Shown: positions 56,696 to 64,000, numbered from the stretch's first letter. The stretch: DNA of 64,000 nucleotides from Candidatus Desulfofervidaceae bacterium (GCA_027038965.1 JALWFG010000021.1:124001-188000), one strand, 5' to 3'. The notes: generated by a model not told the origin, from the letters alone. Program-made: numbers and translations.

Positions 56696-57268
56696 TTAGG
56701 CCGCGATTTTTCTTTTAATTTCTGCAACCTCATGCTCTAAATGTAATACCCTCTGCTCCAGCTTGTTATGTTCGTCTCGTCTCACAATAACCTCATAAAG
56801 CCGATCAAGCCGCTTGTTAATAGCATCAATCCGTTGTAATAGCTCTCCCCTAATAGCATCAATTCGTTCATTCGTTTTATCAATCCGCTCATTGGTATTA
56901 TCAATTCGCTCATTCGTATTCTCAATTCGTTTATTTGTCTCATCAATCCGTTGTAATAATTCCTCTTTAACGGCATCAATCCGTTTGTTTACTTCATCAA
57001 TCCGCTGTAATAATTCTGTTCTAACAGTGTCAATCCGTTGTAACAATTCTTCCTTAACAGCATCAATCCGTTCATTTGTTTTATCAATCCGTTTGTTTAT
57101 CTCATCAATCCGACGACTTTGGTCCAGCAGGTGCATGTTGACATCATCCAGCCGTTTGTTAATAAAGGCAAGATAATTCTTTATTTCTTTATTCTCCTCT
57201 GTAATCCTGCCCAACTCAGGCAGAATTAACTCTTTAAAGGTATTAGTGATAACCTCTTTTAGCTCCAT
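56696..57268 (-). CDS. Repetitive coiled-coil protein
   Basis: 190 residues forming an almost continuous coiled coil, with about 16 short units of the form RIDxxNERIDKT or RIDxxxELLQ in register (7-residue and 11-residue spacing). The C-terminal 40 residues (RVLHLEHEVAEIKRKIAA) are also helical. No signal or membrane segment. GGAGGTAAGAA precedes the ATG. The function is unknown; similar repetitive proteins are common next to accessory loci. Confidence 0.75.
   Translation of the reverse strand: MELKEVITNTFKELILPELGRITEENKEIKNYLAFINKRLDDVNMHLLDQSRRIDEINKRIDKTNERIDAVKEELLQRIDTVRTELLQRIDEVNKRIDAVKEELLQRIDETNKRIENTNERIDNTNERIDKTNERIDAIRGELLQRIDAINKRLDRLYEVIVRRDEHNKLEQRVLHLEHEVAEIKRKIAA
56800..57120 (-). 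repeat. Degenerate 21-bp tandem repeats coding the coiled coil
   Basis: On the plus strand the unit ATCAATCCGTTNNTT... recurs roughly every 21 bases across this stretch, with near-identical double and triple units (for example TCAATCCGTTGTAATAATTC at 56944 and 57000). It is in frame with the gene. Confidence 0.85.
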
Positions 57269-57331: not shown

Positions 57332-59380
57332 TTACCGATAACTAAAAGGAAACCACTTTTGAGGGGTTCCCATCAGCCTTTTACAGGCCTCTTCGCAATC
57401 TTCAAGTAACAACCCTTTAAAGTGTTCTTTATTAAGACATTCCGCCACCTTCAGCCCATCCTGCCACGCCTCTTTTTCAAAAATGTCCATTTGATATAGC
57501 CCACAAAGGGGCAATAGCTTCATGACCTTAACTGCCTCTCCTCTTATGCCATCACATATCCCTATGGCCTGATAAAAGGCCTGTCTGGCAGGTTCCCTCT
57601 GGCCGTTTTTTAAAAGACACATTCCCAGATTATAAAAGATAAGCTGAAAGGGATGGCACATGATATCCCTTGTTTTAAGCCGCTCTTTGACAAGACTCAA
57701 TTCTTGCGGCCGCAAGGAGGCACCCATTTCATTTTTCCATCTCAACCAAGCAAAGAGGCGAAATTTATCCTTTAATGTTGTTTCACAAAGCTCAAGCCTG
57801 CCCTTGAGGTAGTTCTCTAGGGCCTTTGTAGCCTCCTTTGGTCTTCCTGCATCCAGATAGGCAAAAAATATATAGGCAAACTGCCTTTCATAATCCTCTT
57901 TAAGGTCCGGATTCTGACCACTGCCAAAGTGCATTTGGGCAAGTTTTGCATATCTGATGGTTTCAGAGAGATATTGCAGGCCACAAAAGCCGTAATTCTG
58001 AGCTATTGTTCCATAAAACTTTCCTAATATCTTATTGAATGTGCCCTCATATCGCCTTTCAAGCCTTTTAACTATCTCTTTAAACACAGACGGAAGCTCA
58101 GGTAAAAACACATAACGATTGTGCCTTTCATGAATAAAAACGCTGTTCAAAAAGCTGAATACCTTATCTTCAGCATCCATTAAAACGGAATTCACAAGCC
58201 TCTCACCCATCTCTTTCCACTCTTCAGCCTCTTGCAACCAGCCGTAATGGGTGGACAATTTAAAAAGATAGGAACAAAGGCAAAAGGCCGCTCTGTAACT
58301 TATAGACTTAAGACCCTCAATAAGACGAGGCGAAATGTGCCTATAACATACCCGGGCCTGTGGTCTTTGATACCTGCACCAGTTACCAAAGGTCTTTACA
58401 AAGCTTAAGGCCGTATCTCTTTGTTTAAATATTCCTTCAAACTGTTCTTTCAATCCAAAATTGAAAGCCCATTTCAAGGCCTCTCCTGAAACCATATCAC
58501 AATTATTGACAAAATCTGGAGATGAATGAAAAAGCAATGACAGATGTCTAATTTCTTCCGGATTGTTTTGAAACTTCACTGCCCAGAGGTAGGCCTCTAA
58601 AAGGTCCTCTACTGGCACGGCCTCTATGCCTTCACATCTATATTGACCATTTTCTGAAGGATAAATAAAAAGCCGATATTTATTGTCTTTGGCATAGTCA
58701 AGCTTTTTCTCTATTGCCCCAACCTGCCTCACCCTAAGGCCTTCATCTAAATCGCCTGTGGCCAGAAACGGTCTAAAGGGCCTTTCTCCTCTTAAAAGGC
58801 AAGTTGCTCCTATGGCCAATGGCAGACATAAAGAGGTTTGAAATATGGCCAACTCCAATTTGGGGTTAAATAGGGGATATACAAAAAAACGGGCTTGCAT
58901 TTTATTTAGTTTATTTGCTGCTTCAAATGCCCGTTTTATGGCCTTAAGGGCATCGGGCAAGATGTGGGGTTTAAAGAGAGAAAATAACTCAAAAACTTCC
59001 TCTGTTGTCTTAGAAATATCCACTATGCTTTTAATGGCTTCCCCTTTGCCAAGCATAAACCAAATCACTCGAGGTCGTCCCAGACCAGAAACCACGATGA
59101 CAGGCACCCCAATCCAGTTAAGTTTCGTCAAAAGGTCGGCTTTAGGTATTAATGGTATATCTAGGGATTTAAGATACTGACTGGTTTTAGACCTTAAAAG
59201 CCCGTTACTTAATATTATCAGCTTAAAATAAAGACAATCTTCAGGACAAAGCTCCCTTTCTGCTTTTTGCAAGGCCTCTTTGATAGAAAAACTGTCTTTA
59301 AGGGAAATATCATAGGGATTGGCAAAATAATCATTCTTGTGTTTGATAAGAAAAAGGAGGGTCTGGGGGCTTAAATCCAT
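57332..59380 (-). CDS. Lon-type (S16-like) Ser-Lys protease-domain protein with TPR-like repeats
   Basis: 682 residues. Residues ~85-265 resemble the Lon proteolytic domain without its AAA+ part. Ser183 (QTSLCLPLAIGAT), Thr208 (FLATGDLD) and Lys226 (VGAIEKKLDYA) align by spacing with Lon Ser679, Thr704 and Lys722; the 43-residue Ser-Lys distance is identical. IYPSENG and EAVPVEDLLEAYLWA also fit the domain end. The usual DGPSAG around Ser is lost. Residues ~270-660 are alpha-helical TPR-like repeats (GTIAQNYGF, HPFQLIFYNLGM...GQREPARQAFYQAI). The ATG overlaps the anti-sigma-like gene by 10 bases. It probably cuts a regulatory protein on a signal; target and trigger are inferred. Confidence 0.72.
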   Translation of the reverse strand: MDLSPQTLLFLIKHKNDYFANPYDISLKDSFSIKEALQKAERELCPEDCLYFKLIILSNGLLRSKTSQYLKSLDIPLIPKADLLTKLNWIGVPVIVVSGLGRPRVIWFMLGKGEAIKSIVDISKTTEEVFELFSLFKPHILPDALKAIKRAFEAANKLNKMQARFFVYPLFNPKLELAIFQTSLCLPLAIGATCLLRGERPFRPFLATGDLDEGLRVRQVGAIEKKLDYAKDNKYRLFIYPSENGQYRCEGIEAVPVEDLLEAYLWAVKFQNNPEEIRHLSLLFHSSPDFVNNCDMVSGEALKWAFNFGLKEQFEGIFKQRDTALSFVKTFGNWCRYQRPQARVCYRHISPRLIEGLKSISYRAAFCLCSYLFKLSTHYGWLQEAEEWKEMGERLVNSVLMDAEDKVFSFLNSVFIHERHNRYVFLPELPSVFKEIVKRLERRYEGTFNKILGKFYGTIAQNYGFCGLQYLSETIRYAKLAQMHFGSGQNPDLKEDYERQFAYIFFAYLDAGRPKEATKALENYLKGRLELCETTLKDKFRLFAWLRWKNEMGASLRPQELSLVKERLKTRDIMCHPFQLIFYNLGMCLLKNGQREPARQAFYQAIGICDGIRGEAVKVMKLLPLCGLYQMDIFEKEAWQDGLKVAECLNKEHFKGLLLEDCEEACKRLMGTPQKWFPFSYR

Positions 59381-60690
59381 ACGACCACCTTTAAGACACC
59401 CTGTTTTGCAAAGCCCACATTTTTAAATCTGGCTATAAAGTGGCCATTTTCATGGGTCAAATAAAAGGGCTTGAGCAATTTGTCTTCAAAGACAATGGCT
59501 GCCTTAAGGGCCTTAATCTCTTCTTCTGGTATTTCTACTTCGCCTGCCACTTCAAAAAAGTCTTCATACCATTCAACATAAAATGGCCTTATGTCCAGAG
59601 GCTCTATGGACTCAATGCCCTCTTTGCCCTGTTTTATAACCATTCCCTCAGAGGCAAGACCCATTTCCTGCCTTTGGGCCGCTAGGGCATAGGCCTTTTT
59701 TGGATAGCTGGCAAAAAAGACCCAATCTTTGCCAATGACGGCCTCATCTAAACGGACCACAGATGGGTCATCGTCTTTAAATGATTTCCCGTTTGCCTTC
59801 AAAGTATAACCCCACTGCTCTAGCATCTTGGCTAGAAAAGTCTTCATACCCTTTTTGAGCCTTACAGGTAGCCCCTTTTGCCCATTTTTATAGGCGATAA
59901 ATCGGGTTTCTAGCACGGTTTGAAGACAGCTTGGGCAGGTATAAAGATGCCTTTTAAACTCATCTTCTTCCTCTTGAGACAACTCTCCCAGGGCATAAAG
60001 CACAGCCATCTCTTGATATTCACATAACTTTTTATTTTTAAAAGCAGGCTTTAAGCTTCTTTCTATCTCCGGGTATAACTCAGGCTCTGGGAAAACTGGT
60101 TTCTCTTCAAACCACCAAAAGTCTTCTGAAACCTCCGTTTTTTTATACTCTTCAAGCACATTGGTAACTGGCTCAAAATAGCCAAAATATTGTTTAAAGG
60201 TCTGCTCAAGCCCATTGATTTCATCAATCAAGAACTGGCCTTTACTATAGTTTAATAATCCCTTTTTAAACCATATTAGGTCCATCCACAAGGACAAAAA
60301 TGCTTGAACTTTTTCAGAAAGTTGCTCCTTTTTATTTTCATATTTATTTTCATACTCAGGTGTATCTTCAAATAAAAGACAGTCCTCTGAAAGCCTTTTT
60401 ACGGCCCAAAGCCTCTCTCTGAGTTCAGAGATAAGTTGTCTCAATTTATCACTGCTTAAAAGGGCATCTAAATCTGTTACAAATGTTGAAGAAATCTCAT
60501 CTAACCGTTGCCTTAGCTCCAGGGGCAAATCCCTATGGCCATACTCAAGTCTTGCCTTAACTGAAAACAAAACAAGGATTAAATATTCCCTTGAATAGCG
60601 GGAAAATTCGCCTTTTCTTAATAAATCCTCTGCCCATTTAAGCCTTTGGAGACACCTGCTGTAGGCCTTATTATTCATGGCATTTCTCAT
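59371..60690 (-). CDS. Cytoplasmic zinc-finger anti-sigma-like protein
   Basis: 439 residues without a membrane segment. Residues ~1-200 are helical and charged. Residues ~225-265 match a zf-HC2-type anti-sigma zinc finger (CEYQEMAVLYALGELSQEE then HLYTCPSC: His-x3-Cys-x2-Cys). Residues ~320-439 form a beta-rich domain (EVAGEVEIPEEEIKALKAAIVFEDK...) of unknown type. It lies four bases after the sigma gene, so it is probably the sigma partner. AGGTG precedes the ATG; a start four codons later is possible. Confidence 0.72.
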   Translation of the reverse strand: MRNAMNNKAYSRCLQRLKWAEDLLRKGEFSRYSREYLILVLFSVKARLEYGHRDLPLELRQRLDEISSTFVTDLDALLSSDKLRQLISELRERLWAVKRLSEDCLLFEDTPEYENKYENKKEQLSEKVQAFLSLWMDLIWFKKGLLNYSKGQFLIDEINGLEQTFKQYFGYFEPVTNVLEEYKKTEVSEDFWWFEEKPVFPEPELYPEIERSLKPAFKNKKLCEYQEMAVLYALGELSQEEEDEFKRHLYTCPSCLQTVLETRFIAYKNGQKGLPVRLKKGMKTFLAKMLEQWGYTLKANGKSFKDDDPSVVRLDEAVIGKDWVFFASYPKKAYALAAQRQEMGLASEGMVIKQGKEGIESIEPLDIRPFYVEWYEDFFEVAGEVEIPEEEIKALKAAIVFEDKLLKPFYLTHENGHFIARFKNVGFAKQGVLKVVVWI

Positions 60691-60693
60691 AAA

Positions 60694-61458
60694 TCACCTG
60701 TCAAATAAATCTTTTTTATCCAACCCCCTTTGTTCAAGTAACCTGTTTATAATAATACCAAGCTTTTTCTTGGCACGTTCAAACTGTTTTCTTACCCTAA
60801 CCGCAATCTTGTGGGGATTTTCAGAGGGATAAAGCACTTTGGCAATTTCTTCATAAGGCATTGCTCGCAGTCTCAGGGCAATCAAAAAGGCATCCTGAGG
60901 AGAAATTTTTGAAAGTTCATCAAGGGCTAGATAAACAATACCTTCCGCAGAGATTTCCTTTTCTACCAAAATTTCTTCAGGGGTTGGCTGTTTTTCATCA
61001 ATATCAATTTTGTCTTTGTGGCACACGGCATCCTCCAAACAATCTTCCAAGTAAATGACCTTTTTTGAGAGGCACCTTGTTGGCCTTGCTAAGGGCTGCC
61101 CCTCATTTAAAGGGTCTCCATAATTGCGGCTGCCGTGACCATTTATTATATATTGAGTTCTTAAACAGCTTAAAAAATAAAATCTAAAAGCCTGTTTCAA
61201 AAAGCCACTCAGGCTACCCCTGCCTTTATAATCGCACAAAATATTTTTTTCTACCACTTCCTGCAACCAGAATTCAGAAATTATGTCTTCAAGCTCTTCA
61301 GGCCTAAATCTATTCTGCCCTACCACTTTAAGGAATGGGGTAAAACGGCAATAAAGTTCTTCTAGCAAGCGAAAATTGCCTTTTTTAAACTCTTTACAAA
61401 CTGCCTTGGCTAATTTTATATCCTGGTCTTTTGAATTCACCTCATCCTGCCTCTTCAA
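60694..61458 (-). CDS. ECF-like sigma factor
   Basis: About 254 residues. Region 2-like part: RFTPFLKVVGQN, RPEELEDIISEFWLQEVV, GSLSGFLKQAFRFYFLSCLR. Region 4-like helix-turn-helix: LSKISPQDAFLIALRLRAMPYEEIAKVL...KIAVRVRKQFERAKKKLG, with an insertion between the two. The linker is longer than usual. The start is TTG at 61458, barely after the predicted transcription start; a GTG at 61440 with AGGATGAG upstream is a good alternative. It heads the three-gene operon sigma / zinc-finger / Lon-TPR. Confidence 0.8.
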   Translation of the reverse strand: MKRQDEVNSKDQDIKLAKAVCKEFKKGNFRLLEELYCRFTPFLKVVGQNRFRPEELEDIISEFWLQEVVEKNILCDYKGRGSLSGFLKQAFRFYFLSCLRTQYIINGHGSRNYGDPLNEGQPLARPTRCLSKKVIYLEDCLEDAVCHKDKIDIDEKQPTPEEILVEKEISAEGIVYLALDELSKISPQDAFLIALRLRAMPYEEIAKVLYPSENPHKIAVRVRKQFERAKKKLGIIINRLLEQRGLDKKDLFDR

Positions 61459-61567: not shown

Positions 61568-61960
61568 TCAAATAACTATAGGTTTTACTCCTAGCCTGCT
61601 AATTTTTTTATCAAAACTATAAATTTCTCTTTCGTCTTCTTTTTCCATATTGGCCACTATATAGCAATCAATAATATCATCTGGGTGTGTCTCCCAGAGC
61701 TCAAGCGTTCTTTCAAGTGTTTGTCTATCTCTTACTCTCAACCCTTTAAAGTAAAGCAATTCTTTCATTCCCTTTACTATTTCGCATTTTTCGGCTTTAT
61801 AATAGCTTTTAAGCACAAAAATCACTTGAAAAAATACCATATCCAAACATTTAACCCTTTCTTCTCCCTTTTGCAGCCTCTCAAAAAAGTCAATCAATTT
61901 TTTAGATGGCTTTTCCTCGGTGAAAAATCTCAATATTATATTGGTATCAATATACCTCAT
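61568..61960 (-). CDS. vapC: PIN-domain toxin of a VapBC-like pair
   Basis: 130-residue PIN ribonuclease-like protein. MRYIDTNIILRFF carries the first Asp (D5), DDIIDCYIVA the third acidic site (D98) and YSFDKKIS the fourth (D117). The second, normally Glu in a (A/V)ELxxVL context, is Gln45 (FFQVIFVL; CAA codon), so activity may be reduced. The start overlaps the antitoxin by 14 bases. This kind of pair is usually autoregulated. Confidence 0.85.
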   Translation of the reverse strand: MRYIDTNIILRFFTEEKPSKKLIDFFERLQKGEERVKCLDMVFFQVIFVLKSYYKAEKCEIVKGMKELLYFKGLRVRDRQTLERTLELWETHPDDIIDCYIVANMEKEDEREIYSFDKKISRLGVKPIVI

Positions 61961-62210
61961 CTTTGGCTGACCCCACCAAATATTCTGCTGTAGCTTGGTT
62001 TATGATTTCTTCGGTAAGTTTTTTGACTTTGGCGTATTTACTAAACATCCCTGCCAGGGCCTTTACCTCGGTATTTACCTCTACAGGAACTATTTTAATC
62101 CCGTCTCTTTCCTCAATAATATTTACCCTGTCACCTATGTTGATTTTGTATTTTTTCCTAAGCCTTGCAGGTATAACCACCTGTCCTTTATTGAAAACCT
62201 TGGCAAGCAT
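61947..62210 (-). CDS. vapB: AbrB/SpoVT-family antitoxin of the VapBC pair
   Basis: 87 residues. The N-terminal swapped-hairpin fold (KVFNKGQVVIPARLRKKYKINIGDRVNII) is a classic SpoVT-AbrB DNA-binding domain. The tail (LTEEIINQATAEYL) would bind the toxin. The gene is preceded by a perfect 10-6-10 palindrome that is probably its operator. Confidence 0.88.
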   Translation of the reverse strand: MLAKVFNKGQVVIPARLRKKYKINIGDRVNIIEERDGIKIVPVEVNTEVKALAGMFSKYAKVKKLTEEIINQATAEYLVGSAKDEVY

Positions 62211-62441: not shown

Positions 62442-62696
62442 ATGAAAAGATTTTTGGCCCTGTTGGTTTTGGGGTTTGTGTTCCCTGCGTTTGTTTACGC
62501 CTCTTCAGATTGGGGTGTCACCTACCTGGGTTTTGGCTGGGCCTCCCTTTCTGGAAACGGCTACGACAGCCGGAGCACAATCATTTTAAAATACACCGTT
62601 TTTGATTATCAGCGGGACAGATATTCCATGGTGTTTTCTATCTCAGGAACGCCCAGTTCTGACAAGGTGGAGTGGATTTCTGGAAATTGGATATAA
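62442..62696 (+). CDS. Small secreted protein
   Basis: 84 residues. N-terminal signal peptide (FLALLVLGFVFPAFVYA) with probable cleavage before SSDWGV. The mature ~65 residues are aromatic and Gly/Ser rich (LGFGWASLSGNG, ILKYTVFDYQRDRYSM), suggesting a small beta-sheet exported protein. Ribosome-binding site AAGGAGGAAAAC is strong. The function is unknown. It points away from the VapBC pair and towards the convergent TPR gene. Confidence 0.65.
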   Translation: MKRFLALLVLGFVFPAFVYASSDWGVTYLGFGWASLSGNGYDSRSTIILKYTVFDYQRDRYSMVFSISGTPSSDKVEWISGNWI

Positions 62697-62709: not shown

Positions 62710-64000
62710 TTAATAATAATTAAAGGTAAACTTTTGCAAAAAGGCCTGCCAGACTGAAACCTCTGTCCTGGTCAGACAATCTTCCAAGACATCATCAAAC
62801 CAGACAATCTGTCCCTGCTGTTTCATCTGGTCTAAAAGACTTCTGGCCATTTTGATCTGTTGTTGAGCCGCCTCTGGCAACTCTGGCAGCAGTAGCAAGG
62901 CATACCTTACCCGCACCTGAGCCCAGATAGGAAGCAGGGTAATAAACCTGTTTTTATCCTTAACCGCAGGCACCTGACAGGCCCTTTCAAAATATGTGCT
63001 GGCCGTGTCCCTCTGTCCAAGCCGATAGGCCAAACAACCAAGATACATATAAATGAGTTCAAAGGGATGCTCAGCCTCAGCCTTATCAAACCAGGCCCGG
63101 AGATTAGACCTGGTAAATCTTTCAATTACCGCCTGCCAGTCTGCCTGAGTGCCCCTGCTCCACAGGTATTTTAAATAGGCATGGAGTTCAAATTGTTTGA
63201 ACTTGGCCGTTCCCTTTGAAGGGCGTTGCAAAAACTCCCCAAATCCCCTTTCCTTAATACCATCAAGGACCTGCCCTACCTTATTCCAGAACTCGGCTTT
63301 TTGCCTGGCCCCATCAAAATAGAGATGAAATAAATAAAGGTCCTGCCGATGTTTATCCTCAGGCCTTAAAAACTCCTCTTTGGCCTTTAAAAAGCATTTT
63401 TCTGCCCTTTCAAAACAGGTCTCATCAAACGGGGCCATAAAGGCATAATTCTGCCCCATCGTGCCCAACAACTTGGCCAAAAGCTCGTCCTTCAATTGGA
63501 CCCCACTTGTCCTTTTGACAGCCTCAAGCCTGGAGATATAGGGCTCAAGCATCTCATTGGCCCTTTTAAAGGCAAAGATATTGGCCAGGGAAACGGCATA
63601 GCGGTTTACACTACTTATCCATTGCCGCCAGTCTTCAAAGGAAAGCTCTGCCTTCTTAAGGCTTAGGGTAATCTGGTGGTATAAAGCATTGGCCCCTTTA
63701 TAATCGCCCCGATGATTGCAAAGCCGCAGGCAATGATTAAGCAGCCTAATATAAAGCCTTCTGGTCCTAGCATCCTCAGCCTGAGACAGGAGGTTTTGAG
63801 TCGCCTCTTTCAAATAAAAAAGGGCCGAGGCAACCAAACTCCAATTGCCACGGCTGGTCTCAATAAATCGGTCTATGGCCCTCTCCAGACGCTCCAATTC
63901 ATCTATATTCTCCTTTGTTTTGGCAATCTCCTGAATGGCCCTATTTAAAAAATATTGAACCTGCTCCTGCAATGCCCCCTCAGGTTGATCAAACTGATTG
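62710..64000 (-). CDS. TPR-like helical protein, paralogue of the Lon-TPR repeats (5' end outside the window)
   Basis: The minus frame is open to the last base (reads NQFDQPEGALQEQV before the internal TTG), so this is a C-terminal portion of about 429 residues. It is all helical repeats. Several blocks match the repeat region of the 682-residue Lon-TPR protein: GTMGQNYAF vs GTIAQNYGF, HPFELIYMYLG vs HPFQLIFYNLG, and GQRDTASTYFERA vs GQREPARQAFYQA. The N-terminal part, which could include another protease-like domain, is not visible. It is convergent with the small secreted protein. Confidence 0.75.
   Translation of the reverse strand, partial: NQFDQPEGALQEQVQYFLNRAIQEIAKTKENIDELERLERAIDRFIETSRGNWSLVASALFYLKEATQNLLSQAEDARTRRLYIRLLNHCLRLCNHRGDYKGANALYHQITLSLKKAELSFEDWRQWISSVNRYAVSLANIFAFKRANEMLEPYISRLEAVKRTSGVQLKDELLAKLLGTMGQNYAFMAPFDETCFERAEKCFLKAKEEFLRPEDKHRQDLYLFHLYFDGARQKAEFWNKVGQVLDGIKERGFGEFLQRPSKGTAKFKQFELHAYLKYLWSRGTQADWQAVIERFTRSNLRAWFDKAEAEHPFELIYMYLGCLAYRLGQRDTASTYFERACQVPAVKDKNRFITLLPIWAQVRVRYALLLLPELPEAAQQQIKMARSLLDQMKQQGQIVWFDDVLEDCLTRTEVSVWQAFLQKFTFNYY

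Follow-up and report, generated by a model that had tools for sequence, protein, structure and literature searches.

This study focused on three adjoining genes in a 64,000-nucleotide stretch of DNA (the window, G000:C21:124001-188000) from a Candidatus Desulfofervidaceae bacterium; G labels denote genomes, G000 being that of the window, and L labels denote locus stretches. The genes encode a sigma factor resembling the extracytoplasmic function (ECF) type, a protein with a central zinc finger (the middle protein), and a protein that joins a Lon-type protease domain to tetratricopeptide repeats (Lon-TPR). A sequence-only reading had described them as a possible new, proteolysis-driven transcription switch, with no CRISPR genes visible. 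The protease fold, its catalytic dyad and the operon were borne out, while proteolysis and the release of the sigma factor are still matters that we infer; the triad does not stand alone but belongs to a type III-C CRISPR (clustered regularly interspaced short palindromic repeats) neighbourhood, and its relatives are nearly all linked to type III systems. Neither outcome that the sequence-only reading had named as refuting it, a missing Lon P fold or homologues whose three genes never adjoin, was observed.

The triad and the adjacent III-C locus

The features of the locus are as follows.

57332-59380, minus strand: Lon-TPR gene, 682 aa, with N-terminal helices (residues 1-85), a Lon P domain (~88-270), helical TPR (274-682) and a conserved tail, FPFSYR
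58571-59119, minus strand: Lon-type proteolytic domain, residues ~88-270 (AlphaFold2 model, Z 20 to Lon P domains; profile E 6e-16)
58832-58834, minus strand: codon of Ser183, the predicted nucleophile
58703-58705, minus strand: codon of Lys226, the predicted general base, 43 residues after Ser183
57335-58561, minus strand: TPR region, residues ~274-682, predicted docking or sensing part (all-helical model; homology to the DUF3800-TPR protein)
59371-60690, minus strand: middle gene, 439 aa, predicted anti-sigma factor and protease substrate
59926-60021, minus strand: zf-HC2 zinc finger of the middle protein, residues 224-255 (Pfam PF13490, 26.3 bits against a cut-off of 22.2, E 8.1e-6)
59374-59778, minus strand: C-terminal domain of the middle protein (stepwise profile matches to other Lon-TPR loci)
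60694-61458, minus strand: gene for the ECF-like sigma factor, 254 aa from the listed TTG start
61568-62210, minus strand: vapBC-like toxin-antitoxin pair (PIN, 61568-61960, Pfam E 6.8e-11; MazE/AbrB, 61947-62210, Pfam MazE_antitoxin E 2.1e-11)
62710-64000, continuing to window position 64890, minus strand: DUF3800-TPR protein, 726 aa, with a DUF3800-like N-terminus

The three open reading frames (ORFs) are tightly packed: the sigma gene is separated from the middle gene by 3 nt, and the middle gene overlaps the Lon-TPR gene by 10 nt. An in-frame GTG codon 18 nt inside the sigma ORF also looks usable as a start. The ECF-like identity is proposed from the ECF superfamily model TIGR02937 (NCBIfam), which matches residues 32-233 with E 1.2e-6, a score that is below its cut-off. 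Promoter-like sites were no more frequent than expected by chance, and terminator-like sites barely exceeded it. A foreign origin judged by composition was rejected (GC 0.405, against 0.404 for the window).

The absence of CRISPR genes reported for the window proved to be an edge effect, as a type III-C locus lies just past its end. The stretch covering this region (L009; window position = L009 + 56000) carries, on the same strand, the remainder of the DUF3800-TPR gene, an ORF resembling that of a secreted protein, two CRISPR arrays and a run of cas genes. What had been taken for a second TPR paralogue is the C-terminal part of the DUF3800-TPR protein, which passes the window end. Counted from the sigma gene, the array begins at 4.1 kb and the cas genes at 6.3 kb, and both arrays have the same 30-bp repeat, GTTTT[TC]AGGGTACCTATAAGGGGTTGAGAC. 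The cas run comprises a Cmr4/Csm3-like RAMP gene, a Csx11-type Cas10 gene, further RAMP genes, a Cmr1-like gene and Cas6. The Cas10 was assigned from TIGR02682 (E 1.3e-62), with which it scores 212 bits against a curated cut-off of 249 that it does not reach. It has the HD motif, with DYGES at the aligned place of GGDD, and the GGDD cyclase motif is absent from the whole ORF.

Several smaller features surround the triad. The vapBC-like pair stands between it and the remaining CRISPR block, and in the relatives is not a member of the triad. Directly downstream is a coiled-coil ORF with repeated RIDxxNxRID units (56696-57268), and immediately upstream of the G042 triad is a longer ORF (L010:5085-6188), also coiled-coil, whose C-terminus is nuclease-like. 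Two small ORFs with signal-peptide-like N-termini (62442-62696 and L009:8932-9372) are found within the accessory block, in the interval from triad to arrays. The two arrays (L009:9433-11640; window 65433-67640) have near-identical leader-like stretches and lie on either side of a RelE-like ORF, an arrangement suggestive of a duplication of the array together with its leader.

The Lon-TPR protein

The AlphaFold2 model of Lon-TPR (mean predicted local distance difference test, pLDDT, 87.8) carries a Lon P fold with an invariant Ser-Lys dyad. Residues 88-270 superimpose on Lon P domains with Z 20 at 2.1-2.4 A (Z 20.5 at 2.1 A over 167 residues; Foldseek, VIA-align), where the sequence-only reading had placed such a fold at residues 85-265, and a profile of 18 homologues matches solved Lon P domains with E 6e-16 and CalpL (7qda) with E 4e-4. 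Ser183 and Lys226 are invariant in all 19 aligned homologues, around which the Lon signature ATG...G...V.G...K is recognisable, and their spacing is identical to that of S679 and K722 in E. coli Lon (literature numbering). Recognition of the domain needed both a family profile and a structure model. With the single window protein, Pfam gave weak TPR matches and no Lon_C match; a Lon_C search of the whole genome recovered the ordinary Lon genes and missed Lon-TPR; and neither Pfam, NCBIfam nor PADLOC identified the domain in single-protein scans, the PADLOC model CARF_LON reaching E 0.018 over residues 183-245. True Lon proteases also have an AAA+ ATPase domain, which the model lacks, only about 85 helical residues preceding the P domain, so that the protein is an AAA-less protease joined to TPR, as had been proposed.

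The last strand of the model ends no later than residue 257 and everything from residue 260 is helical, so that neither a CARF nor a SAVED domain could be accommodated; none was found in the model. The suggestion that TPR replaces SAVED thus fits the helical character of the C-terminal 410 residues. Across the Lon-TPR relatives, the tail FPF[ST]YR and a GT[IV]AQN motif are strongly conserved. The TPR part resembles the peptide-sensing folds of Rap and NprR with Z 17-18, in a class of helical repeats that generally score high; Csx29 was not among the matches in the fold search, which is no evidence that its TPRs differ.

Lon-TPR and the DUF3800-TPR protein have homologous TPR parts, which hhalign pairs at 97.8% with E 1e-12 (<1% for shuffled controls), and unrelated N-terminal heads. 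Full-length DUF3800-TPR proteins were found in three genomes (G000, G119 and G319), with type III genes adjoining each, and directly beside Lon-TPR in G294 (L047:5980-8121) and L094 (L094:3711-5861) are DUF3800 proteins whose C-terminal parts are long and helical.

Relatives, middle proteins and Csx30

Single-sequence scans of genome contigs and plasmids gave no relatives, and viral contigs yielded none. A second family member was recognised in G042, of the same phylum, and a profile of both then matched proteins in 21 of 395 genomes of a phylum sample. Twenty of these genomes have Lon-TPR (confirmed for G222 by frame reading), and the match in G319 is a DUF3800-TPR protein. All named relatives belong to the Thermodesulfobacteriota, as do the six loci from a smaller alignment search. 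The three genes adjoin in 18 of the 19 inspected loci, the sigma gene lying upstream on the same strand and the middle gene between it and Lon-TPR. The exception to this order is a truncated copy in G253, and in G275 the middle gene is broken into short frames.

CRISPR arrays, RAMP genes, CARF-HEPN, Csx20, Cad1-like, CRISPR primase-polymerase, RT-Cas1 (reverse transcriptase-Cas1) and Cas10 were counted as type III or CRISPR markers, and such markers occur on or near the fetched stretch at 16 of the 19 loci; two of the remaining three are on contigs shorter than 9 kb, and the third is the divergent triad of G281. Csm1-type Cas10 scored above cut-off in 13 of the 21 matched genomes against 76 of the 374 others (Fisher p 7e-5). 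An obligatory pairing of Lon-TPR with III-C was rejected, Csx11 being present in four of the 21 genomes and adjacent only in the window genome and L094. Two further gene types recur at these loci. In most relatives the sigma gene is immediately preceded by a fourth conserved gene of ~155 aa without a significant family match (e.g., L010:6495-6929, L038:6302-6778 and L042:13305-13769); the CRISPR-less G281 has it as well, and in the window vapBC takes that place. Genes for a Cad1-like CARF-adenosine deaminase (L052:5828-7960) and a CRISPR-associated primase-polymerase (L052:2235-3809) recur near Lon-TPR, with homologues in L038, L041, L045, L046, L049 and L104.

Two relatives connect the triad to a characterised cassette. 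The operon in G119 (L044) consists of a sigma gene (NCBIfam III-E sigma, E 6.4e-19), Csx31 (1.7e-41), Csx30 (6.5e-46, above cut-off), Lon-TPR and RT-Cas1. In L094, from a Desulfobulbaceae metagenome-assembled genome, the order on one strand is Csx30 (1.4e-30), Lon-TPR, a DUF3800 protein (Pfam 8.5e-5), a cas-like gene, Cmr1, a Csx11-type Cas10 and a Cmr4/Csm3-like gene, and this Cas10 likewise lacks GGDD. Both Csx30 proteins match the solved Csx30 structure 8eey (8.6e-8 and 5e-6), and the family occurs in just one of the 395 phylum genomes, that of G119, beside Lon-TPR. Csx30, Csx31 and CASP-sigma were not detected among the window proteins. In Craspase, CASP-sigma is inhibited by Csx30, which in turn is cut by the TPR protease Csx29 (PMC10028731); with Csx30 beside it, Lon-TPR therefore holds the position of the protease in a CASP cassette that is already known.

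The middle proteins vary in their N-terminal parts. That of the window begins with a helical region followed by the mid-chain zf-HC2 finger, the PF13490 match confirming the soluble zf-HC2 protein of the sequence-only reading. Most relatives have a zinc-finger-like part and a MazF-like barrel (model pLDDT 82.7; Z ~8 to MazF), and those of L044 and L094 have a Csx30-like N-terminus. A C-terminal domain appears to be common to them: when a profile of this region (window, G294, G162 and typical members) was run against ~640 neighbour proteins, the hardest-to-place middle proteins (G281, G119, L094 and G186) ranked next after the clear members, G281 alone being significant by itself. This suggests, without proving it, that the protease may recognise the C-terminal domain, with the N-termini as exchangeable sigma holders. 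A uniform identity of the middle proteins as CalpT or as Csx30 was considered and rejected: the middle-protein and C-terminal profiles match neither in the PDB, and Csx30 matches are confined to L044 and L094, chiefly through the N-terminal part.

Cleavage of the middle protein is predicted, and Lon domains can be promiscuous. The protease might then be real and act mainly on other targets, such as Cas subunits or phage proteins, with the sigma and anti-sigma factors serving only to control its expression. Given that the middle gene and the protease gene keep their order and their translational coupling across the relatives, and that the middle gene at two loci is Csx30, a known CASP substrate, this explanation is judged improbable, the least probable of those considered.

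Proposed switch and known systems

Sigma binding by the middle protein as an inhibitor, its cleavage, the trigger and the regulon are what we infer from these arrangements. The reading considered somewhat better than an even bet is that the triad is a CASP-type protease/anti-sigma/sigma switch of the type III-C system. While the cell is resting, the sigma factor would be kept inactive by the zf-HC2 middle protein. On binding foreign RNA, the CRISPR RNA-guided III-C complex would engage or reshape the TPR part of Lon-TPR, turning on the Ser183/Lys226 protease, which would cut the middle protein within or near its conserved C-terminal domain. The freed sigma factor could then direct transcription of defence genes. 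In the neighbouring DUF3800-TPR protein, a TPR adaptor of this kind may carry a second effector head.

By analogy with TPR-CHAT in Craspase, the trigger in type III-C is probably direct contact with the RNA-guided complex, not cyclic oligoadenylate, because the Cas10 lacks the cyclase motif and Lon-TPR lacks CARF and SAVED. The strongest argument for contact is that a cyclase-dead Cas10 stands beside a protease without a known cyclic oligoadenylate sensor at two independent loci, the window and L094.

Several observations weigh against this reading. The most serious is that most relatives adjoin cyclase-competent Cas10s and CARF effectors, where cyclic oligoadenylate could be the trigger, and that the window genome has several type III systems beside the cyclase-dead one, with at least three other Cas10 genes bearing intact GGDD (contigs C4, C11 and C16), so that cyclic oligoadenylate could act in trans. 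In addition, the window middle protein is tied to the common C-terminal domain only via intermediates and is not recognised as Csx30. Lastly, the triad of G281 lies in a complete, single-contig genome without Cas10 or Cas1, and the module can thus exist without CRISPR.

The first of these observations supports a related explanation, in which the same type III-linked switch is triggered by cyclic oligoadenylate from other Cas10s, sensed by the TPR part or by a partner CARF protein. GGDD-bearing Cas10, CARF-HEPN, Csx20 or Cad1 genes adjoin most relatives, as it would have it. However, sensors of cyclic oligoadenylate are almost exclusively CARF or SAVED proteins (PMC12669027), of which the Lon-TPR model has no trace, and the L094 protein is encoded inside a III-C operon whose Cas10 lacks GGDD. 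This explanation is held as a real but minor possibility, distinctly less likely than contact.

The G281 triad, together with the likeness to Rap and NprR folds, could instead point to a general sigma/anti-sigma/protease stress switch, whose TPR would sense a host or phage peptide or protein and which has merely been retained in defence islands adjoining CRISPR. The G281 copy, which is the sole non-CRISPR member, keeps the Ser-Lys dyad but has lost the conserved TPR motifs and the FPF[ST]YR tail. The high proportion of loci with type III or CRISPR markers, the Csx30/Csx31/CASP-sigma set with RT-Cas1 in L044, and the position of Lon-TPR within a III-C gene run in L094 also speak against such a switch, which is regarded as unlikely. 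The G281 triad is accompanied by the fourth gene and flanked by TonB-receptor and CsgG-like genes (L056 = G281:C1:3283001-3303000).

Within the III-C switch favoured here, a bolder version is held more tentatively, at a little short of even. Lon-TPR would be an RNA-guided, cyclic-nucleotide-independent protease effector of a cyclase-dead III-C system. The TPR adaptor through which it docks would be the one also joined to a DUF3800 nuclease head, and Lon and CHAT would have come independently to occupy the same slot beside Csx30 and the sigma factor. This would be a plug-in design in which both the effector heads on a single TPR adaptor and the anti-sigma N-termini can be exchanged. If true, it would be a Cas10-based, RNA-triggered protease independent of second messengers, with a bearing on RNA-sensing tools derived from Craspase. 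That one Csx30/sigma cassette occurs with Lon as well as with CHAT suggests that CRISPR immunity has more than once assembled a protease-driven transcription switch from interchangeable parts. No description of a Lon-TPR protein, nor of Csx30 outside type III-E, was found in the open-access literature searched, and papers beyond that set may differ.

Among known systems, the sequence-only reading had named the CalpL/CalpT/CalpS set of type III CRISPR as the closest precedent. The analogy holds for a single operon with an N-terminal Lon protease domain, an anti-sigma substrate and a sigma factor, and the typical relative's middle protein, with zf-HC2-like ligands and the MazF-like barrel, also recalls CalpT, which is reportedly MazF-like. 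In Calp, cleavage of the anti-sigma factor is triggered by cA4. The Calp set falls short as the sole close precedent, Craspase being at least as close, with Csx30 at two loci and a III-E cassette at one. Unlike CalpL, Lon-TPR has a helical TPR half in place of SAVED, a Lon domain closer to archaeal LonB-type domains (6e-16) than to CalpL (4e-4), and a III-C Cas10 without a cyclase motif next to it.

Craspase (III-E Cas7-11 with TPR-CHAT/Csx29, Csx30, Csx31 and CASP-sigma) is alike in having a TPR-bearing, CRISPR-linked protease beside an anti-sigma substrate and an ECF-like sigma factor, and the likeness extends to Csx30 itself in L044 and L094 and to Csx31 and the III-E-type sigma factor in L044. 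It differs in that the protease domain here is Lon (Ser-Lys), N-terminal to the TPR, and not CHAT, in that the window middle protein is a zf-HC2 protein, and in that the window adjoins a Cas10-containing III-C locus, with separate Cas10 and RAMP genes instead of Cas7-11 (G119 was not searched for Cas7-11).

Published work has placed TPR-DUF3800 proteins alongside Cas12a2 (PMC10910872) and DUF3800 proteins at V-A2 and VI-F loci (PMC12669027). These share with the 62710-64890 protein the combination of an RNase H-like DUF3800 and TPR linked to a CRISPR effector, whereas here the association is with type III-C or III-B and the TPR part is common to a protease. Type III-C itself was reported in a published survey to have no cyclase active sites and no known effectors (PMC11229360); the adjacent Csx11-like Cas10, without GGDD, conforms to the former, and Lon-TPR and DUF3800-TPR would be two concrete candidates for the latter. 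In comparison with the known CRISPR protease/anti-sigma/sigma switches, the distinctive features of the present one are the exchange of the protease, the TPR adaptor and the III-C setting.

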